Source of the DNA: Tunicatimonas pelagia
Lineage (GTDB): Bacteria; Bacteroidota; Bacteroidia; Cytophagales; Cyclobacteriaceae
Length of the DNA stretch: 64,000 bases
Direction of reading: 5' to 3'
Assembly: GCF_030506325.1 (NCBI RefSeq)
Contig: NZ_CP120683.1
Span: forward strand, 5,956,501 to 6,020,500
Shown: one piece after another, positions 3,001 through 52,495 of the stretch
How positions within the stretch are numbered: position 1 is the first letter of the stretch
How the letters are laid out: every line of letters starts with the position of its first letter
The notes under the pieces: model-generated
Told to the model about the DNA's origin: nothing
Databases searched by the model: none
Seen by the model: only the letters and a program-made list of their open reading frames with translations
Position numbers and translations under genes: made by a program

Positions 3001-3257
3001 AGGTAGTAATCAAACCTACTGAAACTATCATCACTGTAGAGGATAACGGAATTGGTATTCGGGAAGAACAAGTGCAACACGTTTTTGAAATGTTTTATCG
3101 GGCTGATGATCAAGCTTCGGGCTCAGGTATTGGACTGTACATTGTAAAAGAAACCATTGATAAGCTAGGTGGTACTATTACGCTGTCCTCTCAATCAGGT
3201 ACGGGAACCATATTTGGGGTAAAACTTCCCAATCACTTTGTTGAACGAGAGCGGTAA
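1..3257 (+). CDS. Propeller-domain sensor histidine kinase, 5'-truncated by the window
   Basis: The frame is already open at base 3, and the ATG at 9 falls at the first propeller blade, so the signal peptide and true start lie outside the window. Counting from that ATG, residues 1 to about 630 are repeated Reg_prop blades with W-V/I-G-T motifs. A Y_Y_Y-type domain follows (about 690-750), then one membrane helix (about 755-778), a coiled coil, and a HisKA box VSHDIRAPL with His868. The HATPase has an N box (NLLSNAIKYQ), DNGIGI and GSGIGLYIV. It would sense a periplasmic glycan and autophosphorylate in the cytoplasm. Unlike the hybrid regulators usual for such loci it ends straight after the ATPase, without receiver or AraC domain, and no response regulator is nearby. 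It diverges from no gene here but faces the PUL tail to tail. Confidence 0.93.
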   Translation, partial: ETMQDSTGFVWVATDNGLNKFDGYSFKKYFHVPRNDSITTNHPIKVLEEDQEFNIWIGTWGGGIYVYDYWNDQFQSIVETSDASRLDFNFVYDLYYDDQGRMWAGTVGGLAQINTEDYSFTYYQHDPTDSTSLSNNRAIAISADQEGNLWVGTLGGGLNHFNLDSETFTHFRHRSGDPASLSQDDVYSVLCDAQQRIWVGTWDGGLNLMEDPDKGFVHFYHQPDNSTSLANNQVWSIAEGQQGNIWVGTDNGLCLFQEPERTFVVYRNDPFDVKSLSSNSIKSLDVDNQNRLWVGTYDGGINLYDPQTNRIQHYYQRQNQQSISSNNATAFLELNREQVLVGTDGGGLNLLNRSSGEVTQFIHDPNNPSSIGSDKVKALLLDRQQRIWIGFWNGGMDYFDTDNQTFTHYREKEGNGLASDNVTCLAEDQEGVIWLGTFGGGLQSYDPANNRFTTYTQSPDDEEGLSDKNIWTVLVDRQNNIWVGTSNGRVDMLDRQQNRFIRMLPRPNDNRGYTVLTLFEDQAGKIWAGLDGGGLRLLDQQNNSYEQYTTTEELPSNTINTIEEDASGNLWVSTNYGLARFNPVSKKCDRFTVSDGLQGLHFNRQASIQLSSGELFFGGTNGFNIFYPDSLGDISLNAPIAFTNFEIFNQQVPVGADGSPLEVDINYQESITLSHEQSVFTLSYASINFTNPKQVRYQYRLLGFIDDTWQDAGTDRKVTYTNLNPGQYVFEVIARVGGVTTPLRQLAITVTPPWWRTWWFYVITGLAFVSLLYAIFWLRSQHIIRTNRRLEAEVVERTRKMQEANQELHQKNSLIQDQKEEIQTQAEELIASNEEIRSINQRLEDTVEIRTADLRKSNEELDNFVYRVSHDIRAPLSSVLGLLELMGLEESVEQQNAYREMAFKSINKLDGFVKNILDYSRNSRLQTQNKQIDFHQLLDDLLEDLQYMKNAQRLRIIREIDDKKIYYSDPMRLQVVLRNLLSNAIKYQSPYVANPFVKVQVVIKPTETIITVEDNGIGIREEQVQHVFEMFYRADDQASGSGIGLYIVKETIDKLGGTITLSSQSGTGTIFGVKLPNHFVERER

Positions 3258-3292
3258 GCTGGTATAGGTGCTATGATAATAGAATTGATCGC

Positions 3293-3769
3293 TTAGGTTG
3301 CGGTATATTTCTCCAGTGCTGCCCGAGCATTTTTTCTAACTTTATTCTGAACAAACGGGGTAAAGCCCAAGAGCTTTCCAGGAGTACCCAGTGCCATTGT
3401 CGCCCATTTCCAAAAGTTAAACTGATCGGTGTGCTCTACGATCTTACCGTCGTTAATTACAAACTCAGCCTGAATGACATTGTGTATAGAGCGTTTATTT
3501 TTACCAAAAAGGTAATTACCTTCCCAGGTAGCATTACCACCTGTAGTGGTTCCCTGCACATTGTAGAAGTTGATCTTCAAACTACCGTGCCCTCGTTCAA
3601 TGAGCATCCGCCACATGTTTCTAGCTTGTTCACCGTGTAATTGACCAAATGCAGGGTCTTCAAACTGAATGTCATCACAATAGTAAGCCACCATCTTCTC
3701 AGCATCTAATTGTTGGAAAGCAATATAAAACCCCTGAATGATTTGCTGATGCTGCTGTTCAATAGTCAT
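3293..3769 (-). CDS. NTF2/SnoaL-like fold protein
   Basis: This 158-residue protein begins MTIEQQHQQIIQGFYIAFQQ and has the alpha+beta cone layout of SnoaL-like NTF2 proteins, with the recurrent YYCDDIQFEDPAFG and GKIVEHTDQFNFWKW segments. Such domains bind small hydrophobic or sugar ligands, and some act as cyclases or isomerases, so family membership alone gives no reaction. There is no signal peptide, so it is probably cytoplasmic. It starts 42 bases after the DUF5060 gene on the same strand and may be the last gene of that transcript. Function is not assigned. Confidence 0.8.
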   Translation of the reverse strand: MTIEQQHQQIIQGFYIAFQQLDAEKMVAYYCDDIQFEDPAFGQLHGEQARNMWRMLIERGHGSLKINFYNVQGTTTGGNATWEGNYLFGKNKRSIHNVIQAEFVINDGKIVEHTDQFNFWKWATMALGTPGKLLGFTPFVQNKVRKNARAALEKYTAT

Positions 3770-3811
3770 AAAATGGGCTAAAGAGGTTTTTATTTGAGGA
3801 TACAGTAAAAG

Positions 3812-5677
3812 TTACTCCTTGACCTTTATCAGGGCTACCCAATCCGCCTCTCTATCAGTAAGTGGGTAGCCTATGCCAGTATCATTACTTGCGGTTACTT
3901 TTGGTATACTTCCGGTTTGCAGATCGCCACCCTGTCGGGGATTATACCACATTACAGAGAATTTCCCTCCTGAGTCGCCTAGGTTGATTGATGGGGATTG
4001 CTGAGCTGTTGGTAAGTACACGGCGTAAATTTCATTTTCCAAAGCTAAGCAATAGGAGGTAGTATCTGAAGTAAGTTCGTCGGCGGGCTTCATCTTCCAG
4101 AATGGTAAGTGGTCTTCAAAAAATTGCCGGGCAAAGCGGTTCTGATCCCAGAACATATCCCGGCTGCGGAAGTCTTCACAGGTAAGATCGGAATTAGGAC
4201 TATTGTAACCAAAGTACCACTCTACTCCGTAGCCGCTGGCCATCAGTGTGCCCCACAAAGCGTTGCTCCGGGCTAAGTCATGAGTAGGGTCTTCGTTATC
4301 GGGTAATAAGGCAAATTTAGCATTACCGGGTTCGTCAACGGCCAATGCCCATATTTTTCCGGTAGAATCAGACTTGGCGCGCCACTTGAGTACGCGGGGG
4401 TGTACGTCGCGAAAATCTCTATCACTCAATTGCAGCGATGCCCCGGTAAGTGCGGACTGATCACCAACTAGCTCTTGATAGCGATTATCTTGCTTAGGAT
4501 AGGTATGGACAACCCGATGATGCTGATACGGATCAAGCTGACTGATATAATCAGCCACTTTTTTTACTTCTTCAATAGGTTGATTGTTTTCTTCACCCAA
4601 ATTCCAGTTCATAGCCAGATGATGCCCGAAGCGAGCAATAAGTTCGCGGTAGTATAGTTTACCTTCTGTCCCAAAAGTTCCATCATCCATCAAATGGTCG
4701 GTTTCGGTTTCATGGGTCTTGAAGTGGAGGAACATACCTTTTCGCTCGGCGTAGTCAAATATGCGCTCCCACTGCTCCAGCTTAGAAACATCCAGCCGAG
4801 TTCGGTGAAACAGAGTAGCCCAGGCCTCTTTGTTCTTTTTATCGTTGGCGTACTCCTCATATTTCTCTTCCGATACTTTCAGGAGATAAGGATATACGTT
4901 ACGGTCGTCGCCATCTACATTGAAGGTGAGGAAGGAAAAGACATTCAGGTACTCCGAAGCTAAGTAGTTAATTGCTCCCAGTAGGTTTTTGCCTTTGCCC
5001 TGCTGCCAACTAAATTGGGAGGCTGCTTCGTCAACGTCCTGTTGATGAGGTGCCCAATTTTTTCTCAAGTCAAATACATTAGGCGTAGCGTCAATATCTT
5101 CGTAAGCCAAGAGGTTTTCGGGGGCGTCTACCCCTAGTTTGATAAAGTATTCTTCGGTTTCAGCGTATTTCAGGTAGCGCTCACCTACGTAATTCAGTCG
5201 GCCTTGGATCCGGTTGTCTGGTAACAATTTGTCAGAATCAGCAATGGTGAAACTTCCGGTAGTATCATCGGCAAACCCAGCGCTGGCAGCTGCGGCAATA
5301 TCGTCTTGAACTGCAACTTCTTTTCCTTTTTTAAACGAAACTGTATACGTCCATTCGCCAGTTTGGTCAGGGGTGAACCTAGCCATCCATTTGTTTCCGG
5401 CTTCGGCACTGCTTTCGGCGGCGTTACCATCGGTAGCATAGAAGCCAGGTACTACGTAAGTTTGGCTGCCATTCGTAAAAGTTACATCCAGACGGTAGTT
5501 CAGAAATGGGTTTTCATCGGCCAACTCGCTGGTTTCCGGTCCTTCAAAGATGAGGGTTACTTTGTGCCACTTCTTCAATTCTCCCTGAATATCGACGCTG
5601 GCTGTTTGGCTGCAGCTAGTTATTATGGTCAGTAGTAGTAAGTAGGTTATTGTGAGTAAATATGATTTTATAAGCAT
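3812..5677 (-). CDS. DUF5060-containing glycosidase-like lipoprotein
   Basis: A lipoprotein signal ends at Cys22 (ITSCSQ), so the 621-residue protein is probably anchored in the outer membrane or periplasm. An N-terminal DUF5060 beta-sandwich (about 35-135) is followed by a TIM-barrel-like region with the family landmarks GAINYLASEYLNVFSF, LHFKTHETETDHL and YRELIARFGHHLAMNWNLGE; the WNLGEE acid is a plausible catalytic residue by analogy with clan A glycosidases. The last ~75 residues resemble the small domain called 'collagen-binding domain of a putative collagenase' in glycosidase relatives. The reaction is not established for this family; glycoside hydrolysis is an inference from fold and the neighbouring lyase, SusCD and sulfatase genes. 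Confidence 0.82.
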   Translation of the reverse strand: MLIKSYLLTITYLLLLTIITSCSQTASVDIQGELKKWHKVTLIFEGPETSELADENPFLNYRLDVTFTNGSQTYVVPGFYATDGNAAESSAEAGNKWMARFTPDQTGEWTYTVSFKKGKEVAVQDDIAAAASAGFADDTTGSFTIADSDKLLPDNRIQGRLNYVGERYLKYAETEEYFIKLGVDAPENLLAYEDIDATPNVFDLRKNWAPHQQDVDEAASQFSWQQGKGKNLLGAINYLASEYLNVFSFLTFNVDGDDRNVYPYLLKVSEEKYEEYANDKKNKEAWATLFHRTRLDVSKLEQWERIFDYAERKGMFLHFKTHETETDHLMDDGTFGTEGKLYYRELIARFGHHLAMNWNLGEENNQPIEEVKKVADYISQLDPYQHHRVVHTYPKQDNRYQELVGDQSALTGASLQLSDRDFRDVHPRVLKWRAKSDSTGKIWALAVDEPGNAKFALLPDNEDPTHDLARSNALWGTLMASGYGVEWYFGYNSPNSDLTCEDFRSRDMFWDQNRFARQFFEDHLPFWKMKPADELTSDTTSYCLALENEIYAVYLPTAQQSPSINLGDSGGKFSVMWYNPRQGGDLQTGSIPKVTASNDTGIGYPLTDREADWVALIKVKE

Positions 5678-5967
5678 TTGAAAATCATTAATTTATATAA
5701 TTACTGTCGCTGAAAGACCTGACCAATGCGGATTGGAAGTCTGCTGCTAATTTATGGCAGTATATTGTCATGGTTCATAATTGTTTGTGTTGTTTTACCT
5801 GTGTCAAAATCCCCCCTGCGCCCCTTAAAAGAGGGGGAGGATTTCTCTCATCCTTTATGAAGAGGGTTAGGCGATTTATTTGATACACTGCGTTTTTTCG
5901 CTATGTTTTACCCCCGAAATGTTAATACCGTATAGCAACCGTTTGAACACTACGCGCTAATACACAT
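5678..5967. other. Intergenic spacer with one C/G-rich hairpin
   Basis: There are 290 bases between the DUF5060 gene and the upstream heparinase gene, with no open frame I would defend. The only structure is a hairpin at 5807-5844 in which AAATCC pairs with GGATTT around C-rich and G-rich arms. It is not followed by a T tract on either strand, so it looks more like a dispersed intergenic repeat than a terminator. The long gap suggests the DUF5060 gene may have its own promoter, although no TAnnTTTG element was found for the - strand. Confidence 0.6.
5807..5844. repeat. Imperfect palindrome, possible dispersed hairpin element
   Basis: The outer arms AAATCC and GGATTT and inner runs of C and G make an imperfect stem with an A/T-rich loop. 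Similar C-run/G-run hairpins are common between genes in Bacteroidota, but no second copy was seen in this window. Confidence 0.5.
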
Positions 5968-7857
5968 TTATTCCGCAGAAAGACGAACCCTTATCGTCTC
6001 TCCATCTTCCGACATCAGGTAAGCTGGAATGCGGATTTCTAATCGCTTCAGGCCATCAATCTGCCGGTCTAGTTCTAGTGGTGCGGGGTCCAATGAAATT
6101 ATGGATACCGTTAAGTCGGGGTGGGAGAGGTTCTCGAGCGTTAACTCCTTGCCATCTTGCCTCAGCGTAGCTCCACCTTCCACAATATCTACGTCGGCGG
6201 TAGTCATCAACTGCCAGGTGATGTGCTGGGTAGAATCATTCGGTACAATCTGGTCTTCAATCAGCAACGACTGATTGTCTTCCTTAACAAACCGGCGGGT
6301 AGCACTGGCTATATGGTTACCAAAAACCTCCGACATATCAATAGTTACTTCCGGTTGCTCACCGTCCTGAAAATCAGTGATAGCGGCAAATCCATCTACG
6401 TGGTGCAAAGCGTTGTTTACGGTGACGGTACTGTGACCATAGTTATTCTTTGTGAGCAGTGTCCAACGTTCACACTCCTGGCATCGGCCCCACAGGTTGA
6501 AGCCCGTTTTTTCCAGATTGTGGTATTTTTGATTACCGGGATCAATCACCCAACGTACCCCGTTTAGTTCAAAGATGAACGACCCCGCATCCATATTACC
6601 GTGGTTCACCGAACCCCGACCGCCTTTTCCACCGAAATAATACTTGTTTGGATTACCCTCTTCAGTTCGGAAGAAAACAACGGGGTTGGAACCATTGCCT
6701 TTCCATGCGAGGGGAAGCGACTTGCCACTATCTTCTTCAAATTGCGATAACCAGACTAATCCAGCTCCTGTCCAGCGGGATAGTTCACCCATTTCCGCTG
6801 GGTCGCGCAGAAAGCGTTCTTTTTCGTAAAAAACCTCGTTCCCAGTTTTAATCGCAAACCAAGCCAGGGTCATATCGCCGTTTTCGCTCCGCTTATCGCC
6901 GCAATCGGCAAAGTTGTAGTACCAACCGGAGGGAGCCATGCTTAGTGCCCGAAATTCAGCACTTTCTTTAAAAGCCGGATAGTCGGCTAGACCAAAATCG
7001 GTACCGAACGCACTTTCTAGCATGGAAGCGGTGAGTACCGAAAAGCTGGTTCCGTATCGCCAGTAGGTTGAGCCTTCGGGATAAACACCATCGGGACCGT
7101 ATTCTTCCAGGGCGTGGGGCATCCCTTCCAGTGCCCGGTGAATAGTTTTGGCAGCCAGTTCGGGGTCTTGCTCAGCAATTACTACGGAAGCAGCAATCAT
7201 ACCGCCGTGGCACACCTGGTTCCAGTTGTTGTTGTTATCAATCCAACCGACATTGCCCTTTTCATTGTAGCTGGGCATAATACCTTTCTCAATAAGTGCA
7301 TTTTTGGCTAATTTAACAGTAGAAGCGGGTAAGTCTTCCCCGACCCAATCGACTGCTAACGCTACAGCTAGTGACATTTCGGCTACGTCCAGATAGTGGG
7401 AAGGGTTCCAGTCCGAAAAGTTACAAACGGCGGTTACTTCATCGTTGACCCGATTTAGAACTTTGTCGTCCCGATCTATCCGATAAGTCATTCCCAGAAT
7501 ATTCATACGGTAGAGCATCTCACGGGAAACGCCTAACAGCCTTCTCCCTTCCATTTCTCGCTCCAGCAAGGGCTGCTGCTGAATTTCTTCGGCGTTTAGC
7601 TTGATAGCTTCGTATACGTTCTTCACCACCTCGTCAGACTTCAAGTCTTTCTTGAGCTGTTTTTCAATGGCTGGAGTAAGAACTAACCGAGGACTACCTT
7701 TACGAAGCTTCTTTTTCAGGTAGGCTACGTCCATCGGGTTTTCCAGTTTCACCGGGTCATCATCTGAGTAGGGAGTAGCCGAAGTAAGTTCAACAATCCC
7801 AACGATCATTCTCACTGATAAATAAAGGCTTAATTGCGAAATAAGTATAGATTTCAT
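5968..7857 (-). CDS. Heparinase II/III-family polysaccharide lyase
   Basis: This is a 629-residue secreted protein with a hydrophobic N-terminal segment. The first ~350 residues look like the alpha/alpha-toroid of heparinase II/III lyases (WNQVCHGGM, GPDGVYPEGSTYWRYGTSF). The C-terminal half has the Hepar_II_III beta-sheet signature around GSVNHGNMDAGSFIFELNG, with a His-Asn/Asp cluster and GVRWVIDPGNQ. Enzymes of this fold cleave uronic-acid-containing chains by beta-elimination; the exact PL family and substrate cannot be fixed by eye. It lies 84 bases downstream of susD, behind a terminator-like hairpin, so it is probably expressed at a lower level or separately. The nearby sulfatase fits a sulfated substrate. 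Confidence 0.85.
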   Translation of the reverse strand: MKSILISQLSLYLSVRMIVGIVELTSATPYSDDDPVKLENPMDVAYLKKKLRKGSPRLVLTPAIEKQLKKDLKSDEVVKNVYEAIKLNAEEIQQQPLLEREMEGRRLLGVSREMLYRMNILGMTYRIDRDDKVLNRVNDEVTAVCNFSDWNPSHYLDVAEMSLAVALAVDWVGEDLPASTVKLAKNALIEKGIMPSYNEKGNVGWIDNNNNWNQVCHGGMIAASVVIAEQDPELAAKTIHRALEGMPHALEEYGPDGVYPEGSTYWRYGTSFSVLTASMLESAFGTDFGLADYPAFKESAEFRALSMAPSGWYYNFADCGDKRSENGDMTLAWFAIKTGNEVFYEKERFLRDPAEMGELSRWTGAGLVWLSQFEEDSGKSLPLAWKGNGSNPVVFFRTEEGNPNKYYFGGKGGRGSVNHGNMDAGSFIFELNGVRWVIDPGNQKYHNLEKTGFNLWGRCQECERWTLLTKNNYGHSTVTVNNALHHVDGFAAITDFQDGEQPEVTIDMSEVFGNHIASATRRFVKEDNQSLLIEDQIVPNDSTQHITWQLMTTADVDIVEGGATLRQDGKELTLENLSHPDLTVSIISLDPAPLELDRQIDGLKRLEIRIPAYLMSEDGETIRVRLSAE

Positions 7858-7885
7858 AGATATGGTTGTTGTCAGATAATGTAAG

Positions 7886-7918
7886 AAAAAAGCCCGTAAT
7901 TTTTCAATTACAGGCTTT
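7886..7918 (-). terminator. Terminator-like hairpin after susD
   Basis: Arms 7889-7900 and 7907-7918 pair over 11 of 12 positions with a six-base loop. Read on the - strand the stem is followed by a run of T. It sits between susD and the heparinase gene, where partial termination often separates abundant SusCD transcripts from enzyme genes. Confidence 0.8.
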
Positions 7919-7941
7919 AGAAAATACGTTAAAGACTATAG

Positions 7942-9762
7942 TTACTCACTAGCACCCCAACCCGGGTTTTGCCCCACATTAGGATTTTGAGCAAGGGTAT
8001 TCAATGGAATGGGCCACAAGTAATGCTTACTTTCATCAAATACGGGGTTGGCAAAATCGGTTCCTTCGTACACATTAATATACGTATTACCCGTTTCAGG
8101 ATCTACGCTGGTGGCTACATTAGCTCCTTCATAGCGAGCAATAGCGGCATCATCCCAGCGAATGCCTAAGTCGGGTTGCTCCAGTTTCTTGCCCTGTCGC
8201 CAGCGACGAAGATCGTTGTAACGGTGCCCTTCCATAAATAGCTCTACCCGGCGTTCGCGACGGATTTCAGCAATCAGAGGCGTTACTCCGTCACCTGCGT
8301 AACGGGGGTCCATCTGCGGGTTCATGGTCATTGGGGGCATAGCTACTCGGTCGCGCAGTAGGTTAACGCTGATATCCAAATCAGCCTGGGTGATGGTTCC
8401 TAATTCAGCCACTGCTTCGGCATAATTCATCAGCACCTCGCCGAATCGTAAAGTGATAGCAGGTGATTCAGCGGTGTTAAAGGCCTTACCAATCATATCC
8501 TCGGCATTGTACACCTTAATGATGTGATAACCCGTGGTGGTTTTGCGCCCTCCGGGCATCCCGGCAAAACGCGGGTAATCGCGACCATCGCCGTTATGGT
8601 ACATATATTTTTCTGAGTCGTCGGGGTGTAGTACCGTCTGACGCATCCGGGGGTCACGATTTTCAAATGTACTTTCAATCGTAGCATCTCCTTGATATAG
8701 GGGTGACGAAGTAATGGGTAAACCATCGGTACATAAGTAATCATCGACCATGCTTTTGGTGGCGCCCCCCGAGTAGTTGCTCCAGTAGCTCTGTACATGA
8801 TTGGTGGCGACTCCTAACTGATACTTACGCCAGTACATCACTTCGGGGTTACCCGTTAAATCAAGAATGCGGTGGTAAGCATTGTAATCGTTCTCAGGGT
8901 CGCCAGTATTGTAAAGAGTATAGGGACCATTATCCATTACTTCGCGGGCAGCAGTAGCAGCTTCCTGTAGCCACATTTCAGCATCAGAACCACCGTGATA
9001 CTTACGCCAAGTGCCTTCAAACAAGCACACCCGTGATTTTACTAGCAGGGCACACCAGCGGTTCAGCCGACCCGGAGCGTTGCCATCTTGCCAATCATCG
9101 GGTAATGATGTAGTAGCGAAGTTGAGGTCTTCTAATACGTTAGCCATTACCTCTTCGCGAGGGGTACGGGCAGCAAATACCTCCTCTGATTCAATATTGA
9201 GTGAGCGATCAATCCACGGCGCATCGCCAAACTTCTGCACCTTATCAGCGTAGAACCACCCTCGGAACAAAAGGGCCTCACCAACATAAAAATTACGTAC
9301 TTCTTCTCCAGTGAAACCATCTCGGTCAGAAATAGTGGGCTTGTCGTAGTTTTCCAAGCCGAAGTTGACGGCACGTACCAAGTCCCATCCTCGGTAGCCA
9401 AACCACTGGCCAGTATTGCCATTAGCTTGGGCGGGTGGGTTATGCACTCCTGCTCGTATCTCCTGATAATAATTATGGCGAGGGTGGACTGGTGCCATAT
9501 TATCAGAAAATTCATCCTGATACCAGATACTGAAGCGGTGGCTATCGAAGTTATTGTCGTGCCCCATCATAATCGGAACGTTATCATCTTGCCGGGCAAT
9601 ATCGTATATATTGTTATTGTACACCCGTAAGTCATTTTCATTGTTCCAGAATACTTCGTTGCTAATCTCGTCGAGCGGCTGCCGCTCCAGAAAATCGTCG
9701 TTGCAGGCTTGCATCAGCCAAGCAGCTACAATTAAAAGACTAATTACTATATAGCGTTTCAT
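7942..9762 (-). CDS. SusD/RagB-family glycan-binding lipoprotein
   Basis: The N-terminus MKRYIVISLLIVAAWLMQAC gives a lipoprotein signal with Cys20 followed by NDDFLERQP, the classic start of SusD proteins. The 606-residue length, tetratricopeptide-rich middle (FRGWFYADKVQKFGDAPW, ALLVKSRVCLFEG) and C-terminal RRERRVELFMEGHRYNDLRRW are typical of the family. The protein caps the SusC porin on the cell surface and binds oligosaccharide for TonB-dependent import. It starts 21 bases after susC, so the two are co-transcribed. The ligand cannot be read from the sequence. Confidence 0.97.
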   Translation of the reverse strand: MKRYIVISLLIVAAWLMQACNDDFLERQPLDEISNEVFWNNENDLRVYNNNIYDIARQDDNVPIMMGHDNNFDSHRFSIWYQDEFSDNMAPVHPRHNYYQEIRAGVHNPPAQANGNTGQWFGYRGWDLVRAVNFGLENYDKPTISDRDGFTGEEVRNFYVGEALLFRGWFYADKVQKFGDAPWIDRSLNIESEEVFAARTPREEVMANVLEDLNFATTSLPDDWQDGNAPGRLNRWCALLVKSRVCLFEGTWRKYHGGSDAEMWLQEAATAAREVMDNGPYTLYNTGDPENDYNAYHRILDLTGNPEVMYWRKYQLGVATNHVQSYWSNYSGGATKSMVDDYLCTDGLPITSSPLYQGDATIESTFENRDPRMRQTVLHPDDSEKYMYHNGDGRDYPRFAGMPGGRKTTTGYHIIKVYNAEDMIGKAFNTAESPAITLRFGEVLMNYAEAVAELGTITQADLDISVNLLRDRVAMPPMTMNPQMDPRYAGDGVTPLIAEIRRERRVELFMEGHRYNDLRRWRQGKKLEQPDLGIRWDDAAIARYEGANVATSVDPETGNTYINVYEGTDFANPVFDESKHYLWPIPLNTLAQNPNVGQNPGWGASE

Positions 9763-9783
9763 AAAATATGCTTTAAATATTGA

Positions 9784-12700
9784 TTAAAAAGATACTCCAA
9801 CCCCCAAGGTGAAGATGCGCTGAATGGGGTACTGAATTGCTCCGTAAGCAGTTTCAGGATCTAGGGGAGCTCTAATTGGGCTATACTCCCATAGGTTGGC
9901 TCCGGTGAAGAATATCCGGGCTGAGGACATTCCCGCCCGAGACGTTAATTCTTCAGGTAGGTTGTAGCTTAGGGTAATATTTTTCAAGCGCACGTAGGCT
10001 GCGTTCTGGATAAAGCGCGACTGTACTCGCTTATTCTTACCATCGCCAGTAGAGATATGGGCAGCGGGAAAATAAGCATCTGGGTTCTCTTCACTCCAGG
10101 TATCAGTCAAGAAGTATTCTTCTACGTGCCCGGCGTTGAAAGGGAAGAACCAGGTCCAGTTCCCTGAACTCGGCCAGATATCACGTTGCATAATACCCTG
10201 GAAGAAGGCGGTAAGCCGGAAGTTTTTGTAGCTCACACCACCCGTGAAGCCGAATGAGCCTCGTGGCGTAGTGTTACCAATTACCCGACGATCGCCCGGA
10301 TCTTCCAACGTGTTGCTGCCGGGGGTGATTTCGCCATCCCCGTCCAGATCAGCGTACCGAATATCACCCGCTCGCCAGTTAGCACCTAATTGCTCTTGGG
10401 TGGGAGCATTATCTACTTCCTCCTGCGTTTGGAAGATACCTACCGTTTCGTAGCCCCAAATTTCACCTAACTGCTGCCCTTCGTAGTAGTTATCTAGTTC
10501 ACCATCTCCTCCAATATTAAGTGCGCCATTCGGATTATTGTAACGAGTGATCTCTCCCATGAAATCTGAAATAGCAATTTGAATGTTATATCCCCAGTTA
10601 GACCCTATTCGGTCTTGCCAGGTAATGGCGGCCTCCCAACCCCGAGTAATTAGGTCAGCCCCGTTGGTGCGGGGAGGAGCGGTTCCCAGCACATCAGGAG
10701 CTTCTACCCGTAGCAGCATGTTCCGGGTTTCGCGGGTATATACGTCAAAAGAGGCATCGAAGCGGTTACCAAACATAGTAAGGTCTAGACCTAGGTTACG
10801 GGTAGCTACCGTTTCCCAAGTAAGTGTGGAGCTTACTAAACCAGGAGCCGATACGAACGGAATAAAACCATTGCTCATCATATATGGCGATTGACCAATA
10901 CCCAAAGTCGGAATATAGGGATAATTGATCTGCTCCCGCTCCGGGGCGTATGCCTGGAAGCTAAGTTGGTTTTGATTTTGCAGTACCTGATTGCCCAGTT
11001 CACCATAGGATACCCGAACTTTTAGGTTGTCCAGCCAACTATCAGTGCCGTCCATAAAAGCTTCTTCGGAGATACGCCAGCCAACTGATACTGAAGGAAA
11101 GAAACCGAAGCGGTCGTCAGTCGGAAAGCGTGAAGTGCCGTCGTAGCGCCCGCTCGACTCAAAGAGATAGCGATTATCGTAGATGTACTTCACGCGATAA
11201 AACGCACCTCGTAGAGCATTATCGGAACTGGCACCGAAGGTTTGTTGGGTACCTACTGTTGCATTAATATCGGTGATGGCTGGCGTAATCAATGAGCGAT
11301 TCTGTACCCCAATTGATTTTTCCTGGCGGTATTCCTGATTAAATCCAATTAGAGCGGTAAGGTCGTGACGGGGGAACTGCTTCATTTCGTATTCAGCAAA
11401 GGTGTTGAACACGTAGTAGCGTCGATCGTAGGTGCGGTTCTGAATCCAATCATCCCCACTAAAGCCGTTACTAATCGGGTTTTCTTCGTTCAAGTCGGTA
11501 GAAACAATCTCCACCTTGCTCTGCACATCTTGGTAATCCACATCGAAGAGATTATACGAGAAGGAGCCGTACAACTTTAACCCCTCTATCGGGGTTATTT
11601 CCACTCCTTGCGTCAGCCAGGTATCGTTGTTAGTAAAGGTAGTGCGACCGCCGTCTTCAAGGTAGGGGAAGAAGTTAGTACCTCCGAAGTACATGCCAAT
11701 ATACGGTTCATACTGCGCTCGGTCTCCTTCGGTCTGGTAAAAGGGCAGGTCAGGAAACTGGATAGGTCTAATGGGGCTTACCCGAGCTAACGAGTTGATG
11801 TTAACATCCCAATTATAGAAATGCGGCTCGTCATTACGTTGAGAGTTAAACATTATCCGCTCTTCAAGCTTAAGCCAATCATTTACTTGAAAATCAGCCT
11901 TTAGTAGTACGTTGTACCGCTTGAAGTTCTCGTTTTTCTCACTGTTTCTAAGATAGCCATCTTTATTCAGGTACCCAATAGAGGCGTAGAATGAAGCACC
12001 CTCATTCCCACCCACAATTGATATATCGTGCTGATCGGTAGGAGCAAAGTCGGTCATAATATTTTCTTGGTAGTTGTTATTACCGTAGAAACGCAACTCA
12101 CCATCCACGACTCCCCATTCATTTTCGGGAATTGGATTTTCGCTGTACCTCCGGGTTCCGTCTACAAAATCCTGGTCAAAAGAAGGCTGTCCGAAAGTAC
12201 GCTGGTTGGCAATATTCCGGGCTAGTACAAATTGATGAGGGTCAGTGATAGGGTTCATATTGAAGATGGGCTGAGCCAGTGACCATTGAGTATTCAAGTT
12301 AACGTGAACCTTACCATCACGCCCACTTTTTGTAGTAACTAAAATTACCCCGTAGGCAGCTCGAGCTCCATAGATAGCCGATGCTGATGCATCCTTAAGC
12401 ACGCTAATCTTTTCAATATTATTGGGGTTGATTCGATTCAGGTCCATTGGAATGTTATCAACCAGCACCAGTGGCTCGCCCCCGTTAATGGAAGTGTAGC
12501 CCCGTACATTGAAACGGATAGGCTGAGATGGGTCACCACTCTGAGGGGCAATATTTAAGTTAGGAATCACGCCCTGAAGTCCTTCCCCTACGTTGGCAAT
12601 GGGGCGATTTTCCAGTACTTCACCATCAGCAGTTCCTACTGCTCCAGTAAGGTTTACCTTTTCTTCCGTGCCAAAGCCTACCACTACTACTTCCTGAAGG

Positions 12701-13020
12701 CTTTGAATATCCGGTGCCATAACCAAATTAACTGTGCTTCGACCATTGATTTCTACTTCTACTGAAGTGTATCCTATAGAAGAAAAAATCAGAACTTCGG
12801 CACCAGCAGGAGCATTTAAACGATAATTCCCGTTTACATCAGTAATTGTACCCTGAGCCGAGCCTTTAACTAAGATATTGACTCCGGGCAGAGTTTCGTT
12901 CGTATCACCATCGGTTACTGTTCCCGAGATTTGACTCTGGGCTAGAAGGGAAGCAGGGCCCCAGAGGCAGAGTAGCCATACTCCGAGCGCCCGCATCAGA
13001 TACGGTAAAATGTTCGTCAT
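9784..13020 (-). CDS. SusC/RagA-family TonB-dependent outer-membrane transporter
   Basis: This 1078-residue protein has a signal peptide (about 1-28), a carboxypeptidase-regulatory-like beta-sandwich (about 30-115: SGTVTDGDTNETLPGVNILV), and a plug with the SusC signature QEVVVVGFGTEEKVNLTGAV and ISVLKDASASAIYGARAAYG. A long beta-barrel ends in an aromatic residue (GVGVSF). It imports large oligosaccharides across the outer membrane with energy from TonB-ExbBD. It is the first gene of the SusCD pair, with 450 bases of AT-rich DNA upstream where control should reside. No sigma or anti-sigma partner genes are adjacent. Confidence 0.97.
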   Translation of the reverse strand: MTNILPYLMRALGVWLLCLWGPASLLAQSQISGTVTDGDTNETLPGVNILVKGSAQGTITDVNGNYRLNAPAGAEVLIFSSIGYTSVEVEINGRSTVNLVMAPDIQSLQEVVVVGFGTEEKVNLTGAVGTADGEVLENRPIANVGEGLQGVIPNLNIAPQSGDPSQPIRFNVRGYTSINGGEPLVLVDNIPMDLNRINPNNIEKISVLKDASASAIYGARAAYGVILVTTKSGRDGKVHVNLNTQWSLAQPIFNMNPITDPHQFVLARNIANQRTFGQPSFDQDFVDGTRRYSENPIPENEWGVVDGELRFYGNNNYQENIMTDFAPTDQHDISIVGGNEGASFYASIGYLNKDGYLRNSEKNENFKRYNVLLKADFQVNDWLKLEERIMFNSQRNDEPHFYNWDVNINSLARVSPIRPIQFPDLPFYQTEGDRAQYEPYIGMYFGGTNFFPYLEDGGRTTFTNNDTWLTQGVEITPIEGLKLYGSFSYNLFDVDYQDVQSKVEIVSTDLNEENPISNGFSGDDWIQNRTYDRRYYVFNTFAEYEMKQFPRHDLTALIGFNQEYRQEKSIGVQNRSLITPAITDINATVGTQQTFGASSDNALRGAFYRVKYIYDNRYLFESSGRYDGTSRFPTDDRFGFFPSVSVGWRISEEAFMDGTDSWLDNLKVRVSYGELGNQVLQNQNQLSFQAYAPEREQINYPYIPTLGIGQSPYMMSNGFIPFVSAPGLVSSTLTWETVATRNLGLDLTMFGNRFDASFDVYTRETRNMLLRVEAPDVLGTAPPRTNGADLITRGWEAAITWQDRIGSNWGYNIQIAISDFMGEITRYNNPNGALNIGGDGELDNYYEGQQLGEIWGYETVGIFQTQEEVDNAPTQEQLGANWRAGDIRYADLDGDGEITPGSNTLEDPGDRRVIGNTTPRGSFGFTGGVSYKNFRLTAFFQGIMQRDIWPSSGNWTWFFPFNAGHVEEYFLTDTWSEENPDAYFPAAHISTGDGKNKRVQSRFIQNAAYVRLKNITLSYNLPEELTSRAGMSSARIFFTGANLWEYSPIRAPLDPETAYGAIQYPIQRIFTLGVGVSF

Positions 13021-13471
13021 AATAAGAGAGTTTTAGGTATTAAATAATAAATAGAAAGGTAATTTATAGTCAAGTAAGTATTGTGTAGTAGCAATATGTT
13101 AACCGATTGCATTAGTAATTTACTAAAAACAGTTATCGATTACTTGAAGTAAATAGTTTTGTGTGAATAATAAAACAGTTATTTAAAAAAGTAATAATTA
13201 TTCAAGAAAGTAGCTATAATTTATAATTACCTCTCTTTAGCAGTAGAAAAAATGGCCAAATTTGTTATATATGTATTTTATACAATTACCACTTATTTAT
13301 AAAACTGAGGTTATGTAAAACTATATATAACCATATAATATTATATAATAGTGCTTTCATCAGGTAATTCAGAAGATGTGACTTAATGCATATAATAGCA
13401 ATGCAATCAATTAAAATAGTATAATTAAAAGTTGGCAATAGCCATACTATAAATACGCTATTTTCGGTTGA
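13021..13471. other. AT-rich control region upstream of susC
   Basis: These 451 bases hold no coding frame and are much richer in A and T than the flanking genes. Two short palindromes stand out, one at 13112-13126 and one at 13140-13152, listed separately. I could not find a convincing TAnnTTTG promoter pointing at susC. The susC transcript should start here, since the upstream oxidoreductase gene ends at 13472. Confidence 0.6.
13112..13152. promoter_or_regulatory. Two palindromes, candidate operator upstream of susC
   Basis: TTAGTAATTTACTAA at 13112-13126 has perfect seven-base arms, and TTACTTGAAGTAA at 13140-13152 has perfect six-base arms. Their centres are 27 bases apart and they lie about 90-130 bases ahead of the susC start. 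Spacing and symmetry suit a dimeric regulator, but AT-rich DNA produces such palindromes by chance, and no regulator is known to bind them. Confidence 0.35.
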
Positions 13472-14371
13472 TTACTTCTTAGTTCCGTTCAGTGTTTCTA
13501 ACCCAAGTACCAGGGCTTGGGTACCGAGTTTTCCGTGACCCTGGGCTTGTACCGCTTCATATAACTGCTTGACCAAAGCTAGTCCTGGTAAGGCCAAATG
13601 CATACGGTTGGCTTCGGCTAAAGCAATACCCATGTCTTTAATAAAATGCTCTACGTAAAAACCTGGGTCAAAATTTCGGTTTACTACTCGAGGAGCCAAA
13701 TTGTCTAATGTCCAGCAAGCAGCAGCTCCACCACTGATGGATTGCAGCATTGTTGGCAGATCTAGTCCCGCACGGTGAGCATACAGTAAACACTCGCATA
13801 CACCAATCATGGTACCTGCAATGGTAATCTGGTTGCACATTTTGGTATGCTGCCCCGAACCGGCTTGGCCTTGGTATACAATGTTCTTTCCCATAATCTC
13901 AAACAGAGGCATCACTGCTTCTACCGCTTCTTGGTCGCCACCTATCATAATAGATAACTTCCCGTTTTTTGCCCCTACGTCTCCGCCCGATACGGGAGCA
14001 TCAATTGTTGACACTTGTTGCTGTTGTCCGGCTCGATAAATCTCTTGGGCTAAGCTAGGTTCGGTGGTAGTCATGTCTACCAAAATACTTCCTTCTTTCG
14101 CTCCGGCTAGCACTCCATTTTTGCCTAAATACACTTCTCGTACATCTTGAGGAAAACCGACGATGGTAAATACTACGTCAGATTGTTCGGCGACTGCCTT
14201 TGGCGTATCAGCCCAAACAGCGCCTTTATTGAGGGCTACTTCCGCCTTTTCTTGCGTACGGTTGTAGACGATGCAGGAGTAGCCTGCTGCTTGCAAACGG
14301 TTCACCATGGCGGCTCCCATCACCCCGGTTCCAATCCAGCCAATCTTTGTATCTTGCGTTATTTTTTTCAT
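13472..14371 (-). CDS. NAD(P)-dependent 3-hydroxyisobutyrate-dehydrogenase-family oxidoreductase
   Basis: The 299-residue protein has the Rossmann start [10 protein letters not shown] (GxGxxG, residues 10-19), the family substrate motif [17 protein letters not shown] (about 124-140), and the catalytic lysine in [12 protein letters not shown] (Lys177). Members reduce or oxidise beta-hydroxyacids such as 3-hydroxyisobutyrate or tartronate semialdehyde in the cytoplasm. Placed between susC and a sulfatase, it probably handles a uronate- or aldonate-derived acid from the imported glycan, though the substrate is an inference. It follows the sulfatase gene after 74 bases on the same strand. Confidence 0.92.
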
Positions 14372-14445
14372 TTTATGAATGGTTAGTGGTTTTAGCAGCG
14401 ATTGGTTTTAGATTCCAGTCTCCCTTTGCCCTTATCTTATATCTC

Positions 14446-16347
14446 TCATCTCGTATTTCTCATTTCAGCTAGCTTCTCAGCGAGACGTTGCGCGGCTCTC
14501 ACATCGTAGTCGCGGCTGCTTTCATCTTGGGGAATTAGTTGTTGCACCGTTTTCAACGAGGGTAGTGCGTCTTCATCTATGGTTTCTAGTACATTGAGAG
14601 CTTGTACTCGGGCCATCATATTATCATCAGCAAGAGCATTGCCAAGTGCATTAACCGCAGCTTGCTTCTCACCCAGGTGGTACAAGGCTTCAGCAGCAGC
14701 AATTTGCACGCTTACTTCGCTATCCTCTAATAGTTTTTGTAACTGAGGTTGAGCATCAGTAGCATGTTGAGCTAAAATACGGCAACCGGTAGCCGCCCAG
14801 TAGCGAATAATCGGATTCTCACTTTCTAATTGGCTAATTAGGTCAGAGACGTACTGAGGGTCACGTTGGGTGGCCATTTCAGCTACTGCTATAATATCTT
14901 CTAAAGGATAAGCATCCGAATGAGTGAATTCGTACAGCGTGGTTGATGAGTCTTCGGTAATGTTAAGCATCATCGCTTCTGGTAAGAAGCCAACATCCCG
15001 AACATCAAGTAGCCATTGCCGGTTGGCATTTTTCAGTTCGGTAAGCTTTTCTTGGTGCTCTGGATCATCAGCCAAGTTATTGATATTATGGGGGTCAGCT
15101 ACTACATCGTACAATTCTTCGGCAGGCTTTTCTTCAAAGAAAGCCGATTGAACTTCGTTTAACTGACCAGCAAGGTAGGCTTCTTCCCAGGAGCGCATAG
15201 AGGGCGCTCGCCACAGATATTCAATATACTGAGCGTAGATTTTATGAGGCATGTAGTTACGGACGTAGCGAAACTGCTTATCCCTTACGGAGCGGACCAT
15301 ATCAAACCGCTCGTCCATACGCCCGCGAAAGTTGTAAACATAGGGTTGAGGTTCGGTCGATTGTTCCCCCAGAAAAGCATTTCCTTGCATATAATCGGGA
15401 ACTGTAACACCCACTAAAGAAAGAAGCGTAGGAGCAAAATCAACAAAACTTACCAAACGGTCGCTGATGCTGCCAGGTTCTCCAGAAGCAAGGTGCTGAT
15501 AAGCCTTAGGAAAGCGAATAATGAGGGGAATGTGTAATCCTGATTCGTAGATGAATCGCTTGCTACGTCCTATTACCCCACCGTGATCGCTGTAGTAAAA
15601 AACGATGGTGCTGTCGGCCAAACCTGATTCTTCTAACGCTTGTAATACTTCACCCACTTTGGCATCCATTTGCTGCACCCGATCGTAGTACTGTGCCCAA
15701 TCGTGCTCCATCTCCGGGGTGCGCGGGTGGTAAGGTGGAATAGGAACTGTCTTGGGGTCGTGAAGTAGCGAGTCATTCGGAATGAAGGAGTGAACCGAAC
15801 TTTCGTGGGAGGTAGTAAAGTTGAAAATAGCAAAAAAAGGCTGCCCAGGGCTCCGATTCTGATACGTAGCTTCTCGGCTGGATTCATCCCATACTTCGGG
15901 CTGATCGGTAGTGTTGTAGTCTTTCTTTACGTTATTGGTGCAGTAGTATCCTGCCTCCTTCAAATAAGCCGGATAGAATCTTACAAAATCTGGAATGGCG
16001 TAGGTACTTCGCATATGCTGGGTTCCCAAGGAGTTGGGGTACATTCCGGTAATGAGTGCGTTGCGGGAGGGAGCGCAGACTGGGGCGGCGGAGAATGCCT
16101 GCGTATAACGTACTCCCTCCGTTGCCAAACGGTCAATGTTGGGCGTAGTGGCAAAGGTGTCGCCGTAGGCACCAATAAATGGGCTATTGTCTTCACTAGT
16201 GATCCAAAGAATGTTGGGGGGGCGCTCGGTGGTAGTAGGTTCGGGAGACGAACAGCTTATGCCGAGAAATAATAGTGCAATAGCAAGTACGGTAAAACTG
16301 CTCCTGTTTACAGTATCAGCAAACGGTTGAAATGTTAATCTTAACAT
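14446..16347 (-). CDS. Secreted sulfatase with C-terminal HEAT-like repeats
   Basis: This formylglycine-dependent sulfatase has the activation motif CAPSR at Cys91, a metal-binding start NILWITSEDNSP, and SDHGGVIGRSKR. The NSLGTQHMRS segment recalls N-sulfoglucosamine sulfohydrolase-like members of family S1. A signal segment ending near LGISCSSPEP suggests a lipoprotein. After the sulfatase core (to about residue 480) come about 150 residues of HEAT-like repeats (AAAEALYHLGEKQAAVNALG), probably for protein or glycan contacts. It would remove sulfate outside the cytoplasm before or during lyase action. No sulfatase-maturating enzyme is encoded in the window. Confidence 0.93.
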   Translation of the reverse strand: MLRLTFQPFADTVNRSSFTVLAIALLFLGISCSSPEPTTTERPPNILWITSEDNSPFIGAYGDTFATTPNIDRLATEGVRYTQAFSAAPVCAPSRNALITGMYPNSLGTQHMRSTYAIPDFVRFYPAYLKEAGYYCTNNVKKDYNTTDQPEVWDESSREATYQNRSPGQPFFAIFNFTTSHESSVHSFIPNDSLLHDPKTVPIPPYHPRTPEMEHDWAQYYDRVQQMDAKVGEVLQALEESGLADSTIVFYYSDHGGVIGRSKRFIYESGLHIPLIIRFPKAYQHLASGEPGSISDRLVSFVDFAPTLLSLVGVTVPDYMQGNAFLGEQSTEPQPYVYNFRGRMDERFDMVRSVRDKQFRYVRNYMPHKIYAQYIEYLWRAPSMRSWEEAYLAGQLNEVQSAFFEEKPAEELYDVVADPHNINNLADDPEHQEKLTELKNANRQWLLDVRDVGFLPEAMMLNITEDSSTTLYEFTHSDAYPLEDIIAVAEMATQRDPQYVSDLISQLESENPIIRYWAATGCRILAQHATDAQPQLQKLLEDSEVSVQIAAAEALYHLGEKQAAVNALGNALADDNMMARVQALNVLETIDEDALPSLKTVQQLIPQDESSRDYDVRAAQRLAEKLAEMRNTR

Positions 16348-16469
16348 AATATGGGTTTAGCGAGTGCTTAGAAAATATGGGTTAGTTTTGTAGTATACTT
16401 TTTCGACGATTCAGGAAGAAATTTTTTAGCGTAAGACTTGCTGTACCTAGCAGGTCTTCTTTTTCTGGG

Positions 16470-17420
16470 TCAACTCGGTATTGCTCGGGCTACAGCGTTT
16501 TTCATCTTGCTCAGCCCAGTTTTGGCCACAGTCAGCGCATCTTGCTGCCAGTAGTCTTCATTGAATAGCTCTAAAGAAAGAATTTTGCCAGACCCGGTCT
16601 TGTGCAAATCTTGTAATACCTCTGTTACCGGAGCTACTCCGTCGCCCGGATACACGCGGTGGCTGTCATTAAGCTGCTCTCGACTAGGCTGTGCCGGATA
16701 GTCGTTGATATGAAATATTTCAATAGCCGAACCGCTGAGTAGTTTCAGACCATTAAATTCGGAGCCACCTTTGTATAAATGATAGATGTCGGGCAGTATT
16801 CGGGCTTTTGGGTGCTGACTTTCTACGGCTACAAACATGCTCTGTCCTAACCGGTGTAAGTTAGCAGAAAATCCCCACACCTCGAGCTGCGGAATAACTC
16901 CCTGCGATTCTCCCAGTTCTAAAATGGCTCGGTATCGCTCTGCTGCTTTCATCAAATCCAGACCTGGCTCCTTGGTAGCTCCCATCGGTGGGGCGGCAAT
17001 ACGTGAGCAACCCAGTTGAGCTAGCGTATCCATTTCTCGTTTGAGTTGCTCCACGGCTTGCTGTCGAACCGAATTGTCATCTACAATCCACTGAACGAAG
17101 CCAATAGCATTGGCTACTGAGAGTCCTAAGTCATCAATGCGCTTGCGTAAGTCTGAAAGCGAGCCGCCCTGCTCAACGTACTTTTGCAATCCATTCATCC
17201 AAACCTCAACGGCATCGTAGCCCGCTTCCGAAGTAACCTCCAGCTCTCTAACAATTCCTAGTTCCTGTCCTCGGAGGGTACTCACGTTAAGGCAGTAGAG
17301 AAAGTCTGGCGGAGCTGAAGTGGGGTTTGAGAAAGAAGAAAGAGGATTAGTGGCCAGTGCTGATGAGGTGGTGAATAATCCGGCAAGTGCGTTCCGACGG
17401 GAACAAACTGCATCAAGCAT
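16470..17420 (-). CDS. Sugar phosphate isomerase/epimerase-like TIM-barrel protein with Tat signal
   Basis: The N-terminus carries a twin-arginine motif (SRRNAL, residues 7-12) followed by a hydrophobic stretch, so the 316-residue protein is probably exported folded. The rest is a xylose-isomerase-like TIM barrel: GYDAVEVWMNG, LEVWGFSANLHRL, ARILPDIYHLYKGG, IFHINDYPAQP and LSLELFNEDYW supply the Glu, Asp and His ligands of the metal site. Isomerisation or epimerisation of a sugar or inositol is likely; the substrate is unknown. It is the first gene of the - strand series leading into the sulfatase and oxidoreductase. Confidence 0.87.
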   Translation of the reverse strand: MLDAVCSRRNALAGLFTTSSALATNPLSSFSNPTSAPPDFLYCLNVSTLRGQELGIVRELEVTSEAGYDAVEVWMNGLQKYVEQGGSLSDLRKRIDDLGLSVANAIGFVQWIVDDNSVRQQAVEQLKREMDTLAQLGCSRIAAPPMGATKEPGLDLMKAAERYRAILELGESQGVIPQLEVWGFSANLHRLGQSMFVAVESQHPKARILPDIYHLYKGGSEFNGLKLLSGSAIEIFHINDYPAQPSREQLNDSHRVYPGDGVAPVTEVLQDLHKTGSGKILSLELFNEDYWQQDALTVAKTGLSKMKNAVARAIPS

Positions 17421-17529
17421 AAAAAGAGAGTTAGGTGTTTATGGCTAAGCTAACTATCTTTATGCTTTACCGCAAATTTTACCGCACGGGAATACGCTAA
17501 TAGCCTAAAACTGGGCAGTATTGGGTTCT

Positions 17530-18636
17530 TTAACGAAGAGTAGAAGTTTCGAGAAGGGGTACAATGGGCAGTGTAAAGTAGAAGGTAGTGCCTTCGTCTT
17601 TCTTGCTTTCTACCCAGATTTTCCCACCATTACGCCGAACAAATTCATTACACAGCACCAGACCTAAGCCGGTGCCTTTTTCCTGGTCGGTGCCTTTAGT
17701 AGAATATCCCGCTCGCTGAAATAGCTGCTGAACTGAGCTTTCAGCCATGCCAACCCCAGTATCAGATACGGCTACGATAGTTACGTTCTCCTTGTGCTGA
17801 GCTGAGATTCGTACAATGCCGCCCGAATTTGTAAATTTAATGGCATTCCACAGCAGGTTTCGTACTACTAACTGAATCATATCGGGATCGGCATGAACCT
17901 GACTGCCTCGTTCTATATTATTTTCAATTCGAATACTCTTCTGACTGGCTATTTGCGAGACAAGCCCCACTGTTTCTTCAACTTCAGGGCGGAGAGTGAA
18001 ATTGATTTTATTGATTTTTAATCCGTTCATTTGGGTTCTTGCCCAGTTGAGTAGATTGTCGAGCAAGCTAATGCTATTGTTAACTTTGCGGGAAAGCTGG
18101 GGTAACATGCTTTTTAGCTCTTCAGGGCTGAGTACATCAAGGTATAGCAAGTTAAGCACCCCCTGGATAGTATTGAGTGGACTACGAAAATCGTGGGCGA
18201 TGATGGAAAACATTTTATCTTTTACCAAATTCATCTCCTCTAGTTCCTGCTGCTGATTGGCGATTTTTGTATGCTGGACTTTAGACCGCTGATGGAGTTC
18301 TTTCAGTATTTTATTTTTTTGCTCTATCTCTTTGTTTTTTGCTTTCAGATGCTCGTTGGCTAATCGCATTCTCTGGTGGCGAATCAGCATAGCCACAGTT
18401 AGGAATAGTAAAACTGCCATGCCTAGCAGTGTACTGTACAGTACTGTATTACTAGAAATATTTAACAAAGGATTGTTCTTTACCCTGTGAAGAAGAGCCT
18501 TCGGTTGATAAAGTAAGGTTCGGGTGTTTAATTCACTTTCCACAAAACTGACAAAGTGTTGACCACTCACTTTCTGGGTGCCAGCAAGTGAAAAAGCACA
18601 GAGAAATATCAAGAAGATATATGTTCTTCTTTTCAT
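17530..18636 (-). CDS. Orphan membrane sensor histidine kinase
   Basis: A signal peptide (to about residue 25), a short periplasmic segment, one membrane helix (about 65-86) and a basic coiled coil (90-138) precede a HisKA box IIAHDFRSPLNTIQG with His148. The HATPase shows NLLWNAIKF, SDTGVGM and GTGLGLVLCNEFV. The tiny sensor region suggests it reads membrane or protein partners rather than a large ligand. No response regulator is adjacent, so its partner is encoded elsewhere. It ends 109 bases past the isomerase start and is probably transcribed on its own. Confidence 0.92.
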   Translation of the reverse strand: MKRRTYIFLIFLCAFSLAGTQKVSGQHFVSFVESELNTRTLLYQPKALLHRVKNNPLLNISSNTVLYSTLLGMAVLLFLTVAMLIRHQRMRLANEHLKAKNKEIEQKNKILKELHQRSKVQHTKIANQQQELEEMNLVKDKMFSIIAHDFRSPLNTIQGVLNLLYLDVLSPEELKSMLPQLSRKVNNSISLLDNLLNWARTQMNGLKINKINFTLRPEVEETVGLVSQIASQKSIRIENNIERGSQVHADPDMIQLVVRNLLWNAIKFTNSGGIVRISAQHKENVTIVAVSDTGVGMAESSVQQLFQRAGYSTKGTDQEKGTGLGLVLCNEFVRRNGGKIWVESKKDEGTTFYFTLPIVPLLETSTLR

Positions 18637-39241: not shown

Positions 39242-39299
39242 GTTTTTAATGAATGATGATTAATGACGAATGATTAATTGGGCTGTCATTGGAAATCGG

Positions 39300-40022: not shown

Positions 40023-40110
40023 ACAAGTTGACAAGTGATAATTGTAAAGGTGAAAATTAGGTGCTGCTTGGAAAGCTATCGCATGGTGTCCATTTTCAAT
40101 TTGTGATTTT

Positions 40111-52494: not shown

Positions 52495-52495
52495 C

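Follow-up and report, generated by a model that had tools for sequence, protein, structure and literature searches.

Which glycan is served by the carbohydrate-active gene cluster at positions 3293-17420 of a 64,000-nucleotide stretch of the Tunicatimonas pelagia genome (the window), and do its genes form a single locus? The cluster combines a SusC/SusD pair with a heparinase II/III-type lyase and a lipoprotein carrying a DUF5060 domain, and an initial annotation had read the whole of it as one polysaccharide utilization locus (PUL). We propose that SusC, SusD, the lyase, assigned here to family PL35, and the DUF5060 protein constitute a compact PUL whose target is an ulvan-type glycan containing rhamnose and glucuronate, or oligosaccharides derived from it, a reading that we hold tentatively, at a probability of roughly 0.47. 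The genome is 7.29 Mb and the window has a GC content of 44.9%. Coordinates are positions in the window, and all PUL genes lie on the minus strand. The analysis computed which genes are present, their families and clades, their recurrent neighbours, conserved sites and a predicted fold, with the families backed by Pfam and NCBIfam profile searches of the window proteins; Tat and lipoprotein signals were read by eye. The features of the proposed PUL are as follows.

9784-13020, minus strand: SusC/RagA TonB-dependent outer-membrane transporter (TIGR04056, 2e-251, 837 bits against a cut-off of 368)
7942-9762, minus strand: SusD glycan-binding lipoprotein, Cys box read by eye (PF07980, 6.3e-48)
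7889-7918, minus strand: terminator-like hairpin between the SusD and lyase genes (13 pairs, 4-base loop, T-rich tail)
5968-7857, minus strand: PL35 heparinase II/III-type lyase of the clade with the motif HGNMD (Hepar_II_III_C, 1e-11; 8khv, 1.5e-106)
3812-5677, minus strand: DUF5060/TIM-barrel/Collagen_bind_2 lipoprotein, putative retaining GH-A hydrolase (PF16586, 1.6e-21; Collagen_bind_2, 9.7e-7)
3293-3769, minus strand: SnoaL-like small protein, last gene of the cluster (PF12680, 1.7e-9)

The genes named in the initial annotation were all recovered as intact minus-strand open reading frames, each with Pfam/NCBIfam support, and its identification of a PUL was borne out by the adjacent susC and susD genes accompanied by at least one carbohydrate-active enzyme, the lyase. 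Transcription runs from an isomerase-like gene through a sulfatase, a dehydrogenase and a gap to SusC, SusD, the lyase, DUF5060 and the SnoaL-like gene. The annotation had placed its genes correctly, but it listed no SnoaL-like gene and did not notice the gap, which is 451 bp long.

The prediction of a uronate lyase also held. The lyase matches the PL35 structures over its full length (GAGase II, 8khv, as listed above; GAGase VII, 8khw, 1.8e-90; BcPL35, 9o3q, 4.5e-72), and by this similarity to characterised members it belongs to PL35, the GAGase family, which supplies the subfamily that the annotation had asked for. With the residue roles that PMC12088678 gives for GAGase II as reference, we found its catalytic Tyr246, His401 and Asn192 kept as Y265, H419 and N211, and all three Arg and those cleft residues that were checked were present as well; the catalytic Tyr/His/Asn, the Arg residues and most cleft residues are common to the window lyase, GAGases II and VII and BcPL35. 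The putative catalytic set of the window lyase comprises N210, N211, Y265 and H419, with N421, D423, D439 and H475 at the metal-site positions. Three of the four Mn ligands of GAGase II (H403, D405, D421 and H457) are retained, but the H403 position is occupied by Asn421, so that the full site is not present. In an alignment of 40 different PL35 sequences, all 10 members of the window clade carry HGNMD, whereas the other 30 carry H-x-H-[ML]-D. A long-stemmed branch with 100/99 support separates the HGNMD clade from the others, in a tree in which some rows are long-branched and of unsure placement. PL35 was detected in 49 of 291 genomes of the order at E<=1e-30 and in 10 of 395 genomes of the class at E<=1e-100, the own genome being included in both counts. 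Matches of at least 50% identity were confined to genomes G000, G049, G180, G193, G620, G643 and G659; all others in both listings, including the listed PL35 outside the clade, were at most 40% identical.

Two natural fusions involve this lyase type. Locus L258 (39-3890) encodes a 1283-aa protein consisting of a PL33-like half, 35.5% identical to that of locus L121, and an HGNMD PL35 half. At locus L259 (1-2397), the start of a PL35 that is 66% identical to the window lyase is preceded in the same protein by a glycosidase-like N-terminal domain with Collagen_bind_2 at its end; the contig stops short of the metal-site motif. This fusion parallels the side-by-side DUF5060 and PL35 genes in the window.

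The DUF5060 protein is a sharper clue to the substrate than the sulfatase. The initial annotation had noted that DUF5060 has no assigned reaction, which is true of the libraries searched. In an AlphaFold2 model (pLDDT 93.1), backed by fold matches, the protein resembles a GH-A-type hydrolase. In the TIM barrel of clan GH-A enzymes, strands 4 and 7 each have a Glu at their end, and in the model E363 and E449, invariant in an alignment of 45/45 relatives, directly follow strands 356-359 and 444-448, counted as strands 4 and 7. The protein is therefore a putative GH-A-type hydrolase, putatively retaining, with E363 as acid/base and E449 as nucleophile. E363 was also aligned to the Glu of the Asn-Glu pair in 4n0r, albeit in a very weak profile alignment (i-Evalue 58). 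No full-length sequence match was found in the PDB, and the protein is only 16-18% identical to the GH5 mannanase ManDH5, BVU_0362 and the GH140 apiosidases. A role as the ulvan dehydratase P29_PDnc was considered and dropped, since the dehydratases are predicted with family PL37 and the mutated residues, compared by eye, do not fit.

The neighbourhoods of DUF5060 relatives point to ulvan. We scanned the best 80 of 554 relatives, in named genomes. Among these, 24 of the 35 loci whose DUF5060 protein is at least 60% identical to ours have an S1_25-GH78 fusion no more than 3 kb away on the same strand (23 under a stricter coverage rule), compared to 0 of the 45 loci below 60%. Eighteen of the 23 linked loci also hold at least one relative of GH105, GH3, GH43-like, BNR_4, heparinase-like or S1_8 genes, the reference genes for this count being taken from these same S1_25-GH78 PULs. 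The reference fusion, from Flexithrix dorotheae, matches 6hr5 (1.8e-216), which we take to be the S1_25/GH78 enzyme P36 of the Formosa pathway. P36 acts on ulvan oligosaccharides capped with rhamnose-3-sulfate, according to the available part of PMC8511951. In the DUF5060 tree, the window protein pairs with that of locus L141 inside a 32-member clade (100/100 support) with 23 S1_25-linked and three PL35-linked members. The literature searched held no link between DUF5060 and ulvan, its only mention of DUF5060 concerning vaginal Lactobacillus.

Relatives of the transporter pair lead in the same direction. SusC relatives (45-62% identity) occur in loci L208, L039, L243, L245, L168 and L046, and SusD relatives (53-68%) in these and in L047. 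L245 combines the related SusC and SusD with S1_25-GH78 and BNR_4, and L168 holds SusC, SusD, S1_25-GH78, DUF5060 and a heparinase-like gene (853 aa). L208, from Arenibacter catalasegens, repeats the window order SusC-SusD-PL35-DUF5060 (53%, 61%, 66% and 49% identity, respectively), followed on the opposite strand by a GH97 gene, and L039 has SusC-SusD-PL35. PL35 adjoins DUF5060 in L141, in the order BNR_4-PL35-DUF5060, and in L146, where a 483-aa fragment of a rhamnulose-1-phosphate aldolase/dehydrogenase lies upstream (621 bits, cut-off 568). L243 contains a PL33-like gene, SusC, SusD, two PL35, PL8 and BNR_4. The best PDB matches of the BNR_4 proteins adjoining PL35 in L141 and L243 are 5muk, 5mvh and 4irt, presumably GH145 alpha-rhamnosidases, followed by the rhamnose-glucuronate lyase 7esk and the short ulvan lyases 6byp; the L141 protein scores 192.5 bits with the NCBIfam model for alpha-L-rhamnosidase BT3686, under its cut-off of 700. 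Because the DUF5060 and SusC/SusD relatives adjoin S1_25-GH78, and the neighbours of PL35 include rhamnose-glucuronate enzymes, we favour the ulvan-type reading. The enzyme type S1_25-GH78 of the Formosa agariphila ulvan PUL H thus adjoins relatives of the window DUF5060 clade and SusC/SusD, but it and GH105 are absent from the window locus. By contrast, the L044 PL35 gene sits with an esterase and GH92, and in L041 and L043 no PUL gene was recognised beside PL35.

Several observations weigh against an ulvan-type substrate. No ulvan lyase, GH78 or GH105 was recognised among the window genes scanned. The genome does encode one S1_25-GH78 fusion, 64% identical to the Flexithrix fusion, which counts in favour of ulvan, but it lies outside the locus at 4.49 Mb (contig C1, 4488731-4492228), and BLAST recognised no SusC/SusD in the roughly 17 kb to each side of it. 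PF07470 (GH88/105) gave only two hits in the genome, at 3.93 and 0.96 Mb, one of them weak, and none in the locus. A search of the genome with the 853-aa heparinase-like protein of L168, run with no positive control, found nothing. Eleven of the 35 close DUF5060 relatives are without S1_25-GH78 in the available sequence, some on short contigs; of these, L141 and L146 carry PL35, and the Zobellia (L169) and Kriegella (L148) genes have other neighbours. The DUF5060 protein of L208 falls outside the ulvan-linked clade. Finally, S1_25-GH78 was not seen next to any PL35 of the HGNMD clade, which leaves the link to ulvan indirect, through DUF5060 and SusC/SusD. As to ulvan lyases of families PL24, PL25, PL28 or PL40, the 10 proteins encoded at 9-18636 contain no BNR_4 domain, no search having been aimed at PL28 or PL40, and the genome has its two BNR_4 genes at 0.23 and 2.57 Mb.

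The main rival is a glycosaminoglycan (GAG) target, which we consider unlikely: PL35 would be a GAGase for hyaluronan, chondroitin or heparosan, the S1_8 sulfatase would perhaps act on a sulfated form, and the DUF5060 protein would be an accessory hydrolase. In favour of this target, all characterised PL35 described in the available parts of PMC12088678, PMC12269599 and PMC13027841 act on GAGs, RiPL35 of the last on hyaluronan and chondroitin sulfate. The available sources describe PL35 as a GAG lyase family with one member also active on alginate; PL35 was not reported as an ulvan lyase in the literature searched, and the accessible part of PMC12269599 makes no such link. The retained catalytic residues fit a GAG lyase, as does Asn, not His, at the position where GAGase III has its alginate-enabling His188; alginate itself is an unlikely target for this reason. 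His occupies that position in many other PL35, including the L044 member of the window clade. L243 joins its two PL35 to PL8 and a PL33-like lyase, families known to act on GAGs, which counts for this rival and against ulvan. Set against it are the lack of a PF07470 gene in the locus, the scanned neighbourhoods of L141, L146 and L208, where PL35 was the sole GAG enzyme recognised, and the ulvan-type genes that accompany the DUF5060 and SusC/SusD relatives. Described GAG loci also differ from ours. Like the window locus, the GAG-PUL of Roseihalotalea indica (PL8-PL35-PL38-CE19) is a Bacteroidetes SusC/SusD PUL with PL35, but the window locus has no recognised PL8, PL38 or CE19 and has the DUF5060 protein. 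Bacteroides caccae PUL25 (PL35, GH88, GH109, GH154) shares the PL35 lyase with the window locus, which lacks GH88 and has DUF5060; GH109 and GH154 were not searched for with models, and every gene at 3293-17420 is assigned to another family.

A rhamnose-glucuronate glycan without sulfate, for example the side chains of arabinogalactan-proteins or a gellan-like bacterial polymer, would account for the rhamnose-glucuronate lyase among the solved relatives of the linked BNR_4 proteins. It would also suit the f11 genomes (L046, L047 and L246/L247), in which related SusC/SusD (61-68%) are accompanied by PL35 of the H-x-H type, an enolase-superfamily protein and BNR_4; no sulfatase was recognised in L046/L047, and the L046 BNR_4 protein had no PDB match. 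PL33, moreover, includes a gellan lyase according to the available part of PMC11848413. We nevertheless regard such a substrate as decidedly unlikely, given that the DUF5060 clade is tied to S1_25-GH78, an enzyme type acting on rhamnose-3-sulfate in the accessible part of PMC8511951. The same f11 genomes carry a second, distant PL35 nearby.

The genes upstream of SusC are listed here with the intervening gap.

13021-13471, no strand: AT-rich gap of 451 bp (23.5% GC), probably dividing two transcription units
13472-14371, minus strand: beta-hydroxyacid dehydrogenase of the GarR/HIBADH type, probably a separate unit (NAD_binding_2, 5e-53; TIGR01505, 268.7 bits, under the cut-off of 340.75)
14446-16347, minus strand: S1_8-type sulfatase with the motif CAPSR and C-terminal HEAT repeats, probably a separate unit (Sulfatase, 3e-41; 9bba S1_8C, 1.1e-98)
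16470-17420, minus strand: xylose-isomerase-like TIM-barrel protein with a Tat-type leader read by eye, probably a separate unit (AP_endonuc_2, PF01261, 1.3e-29)

The stretch 3293-17420 probably comprises two units, unit 1 with SusC-SusD-lyase-DUF5060 (3812-13020) and unit 2 with the dehydrogenase, sulfatase and isomerase genes (13472-17420); what argues for this is the gap, its composition and conservation. A single transcript over the whole stretch looks unlikely. No Bacteroidetes-type promoter motif (TAnnTTTG-type) was found in the 451-bp gap, and sigma-70-like sites were at chance level (30 found, 30.0 expected). Between 3000 and 21000 there were 24 terminator-like hairpins compared to 16.4 in shuffled sequences, and the one at 7889-7918 is a consensus match only; it might lower expression of the enzymes relative to SusC/SusD. 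A GC-rich, near-palindromic element lies between PL35 and DUF5060 (5806-5840); it was ruled out as a member of a repeat family, being single-copy genome-wide at up to 3 mismatches.

The sulfatase is nearest to S1_8C (9bba), S1_8A and S1_8B; these entries score 244-335 bits compared to at most 106 for other entries, and its CAPSR fits C-x-P-S-R, which we take to be the formylglycine motif, so that it is of S1_8 type. Its nearest solved relative, 9bba, is a lambda-carrageenan sulfatase with different neighbours. The window gene and its relatives of 50-63% identity form a 19-row Cytophagales clade (100/100) apart from eight S1_8 genes of ulvan-type PULs, and we accordingly rejected it as part of an ulvan PUL. 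None of the nine orthologue neighbourhoods first mapped (L132-L140) holds PL35, the dehydrogenase or the isomerase; several contain further sulfatases, and L140 an unrelated SusC/SusD pair. Eleven genomes have both a sulfatase orthologue and PL35, within 80 kb of each other only in G239, where they are 15 kb apart. There (L262, C6:89500-109400), a SusC-multi-sulfatase cluster with the orthologue is divergent from a SusC-SusD-PL35-PL8 cluster whose PL35 is of the H-x-H type (HAHMD), not HGNMD. PL35 loci are therefore not entirely foreign to the sulfatase, although the G239 PL35 belongs to the other type and the two PULs there are distinct. If unit 2 belongs with the window PUL, the G239 arrangement would favour a sulfated GAG, which supports the GAG rival and tells against an ulvan-type substrate.

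These results bear on the initial annotation, in which one PUL at 3293-17420 degrades a sulfated uronate chain: the S1_8 enzyme would remove a 2-O-sulfate, for example from xylose-2-sulfate of ulvan, and the dehydrogenase and isomerase would use the released sugars. The single strand, the small gaps inside each half and the G239 orthologue near a PL35 PUL agree with it, as do S1_8 activities on ulvan xylose-2-sulfate (PMC8360166) and galactose-2-sulfate (PMC12549532) in the available parts of these papers. The AT-rich gap, the separate sulfatase clade, the nine neighbourhoods without PL35, dehydrogenase or isomerase, the 1 of 11 genomes with sulfatase and PL35 close together, and L208, with no sulfatase recognised by BLAST across its 21.7 kb, make it improbable. 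The same-strand arrangement thus stood, the single PUL and the step from lyase plus sulfatase to a sulfated chain lost ground, and the Tat-exported isomerase falls in the AP_endonuc_2 family, with the Tat leader read by eye.

A candidate regulator converges on the cluster.

9-3257, plus strand: two-component sensor with its 5' end outside the window (Reg_prop propeller, Y_Y_Y, HisKA, HATPase)

The domain search found no receiver or AraC output domain in it, only HisKA and HATPase following the propeller; genome G049 likewise has a convergent propeller protein after its PL35. Elsewhere in the window are a Bacteroidales small signal recognition particle RNA (52492-52583, 66.5 bits) and gliding-motility type ABC genes (GldG-like and GldA-like, 37727-41040, under the NCBIfam cut-offs).

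Returning to the ulvan-type reading, we infer every reaction, substrate, localisation and co-regulation in the following scheme. SusD and SusC would capture and import chains, and PL35 would cut by beta-elimination at glucuronate (or iduronate); in this lyase Asn210/211 would neutralise the carboxylate, and Tyr265/His419 would serve as acid/base. The DUF5060 lipoprotein, as a retaining GH-A-type glycosidase (Glu363 acid/base, Glu449 nucleophile), would hydrolyse an adjacent linkage. Breakdown of the oligosaccharides would be completed by enzymes from other parts of the genome, the solitary S1_25-GH78 at 4.49 Mb perhaps among them, and the upstream dehydrogenase-sulfatase-isomerase genes would probably act as a separate unit. 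A further suggestion, which we regard as doubtful, is that HGNMD PL35 form a subfamily shifted from GAG to rhamnose-glucuronate (ulvan-type) chains with a changed metal site, that the DUF5060 clade paired with them represents a so far unrecognised family of glycoside hydrolases in the ulvan pathway, and that the two jointly provide a minimal second route for uronate-containing ulvan fragments. If true, the DUF5060 clade that adjoins S1_25-GH78 would gain a testable function, PL35 would hold a metal-site variant with another substrate, and the label 'GAG lyase' for the HGNMD clade could be wrong.

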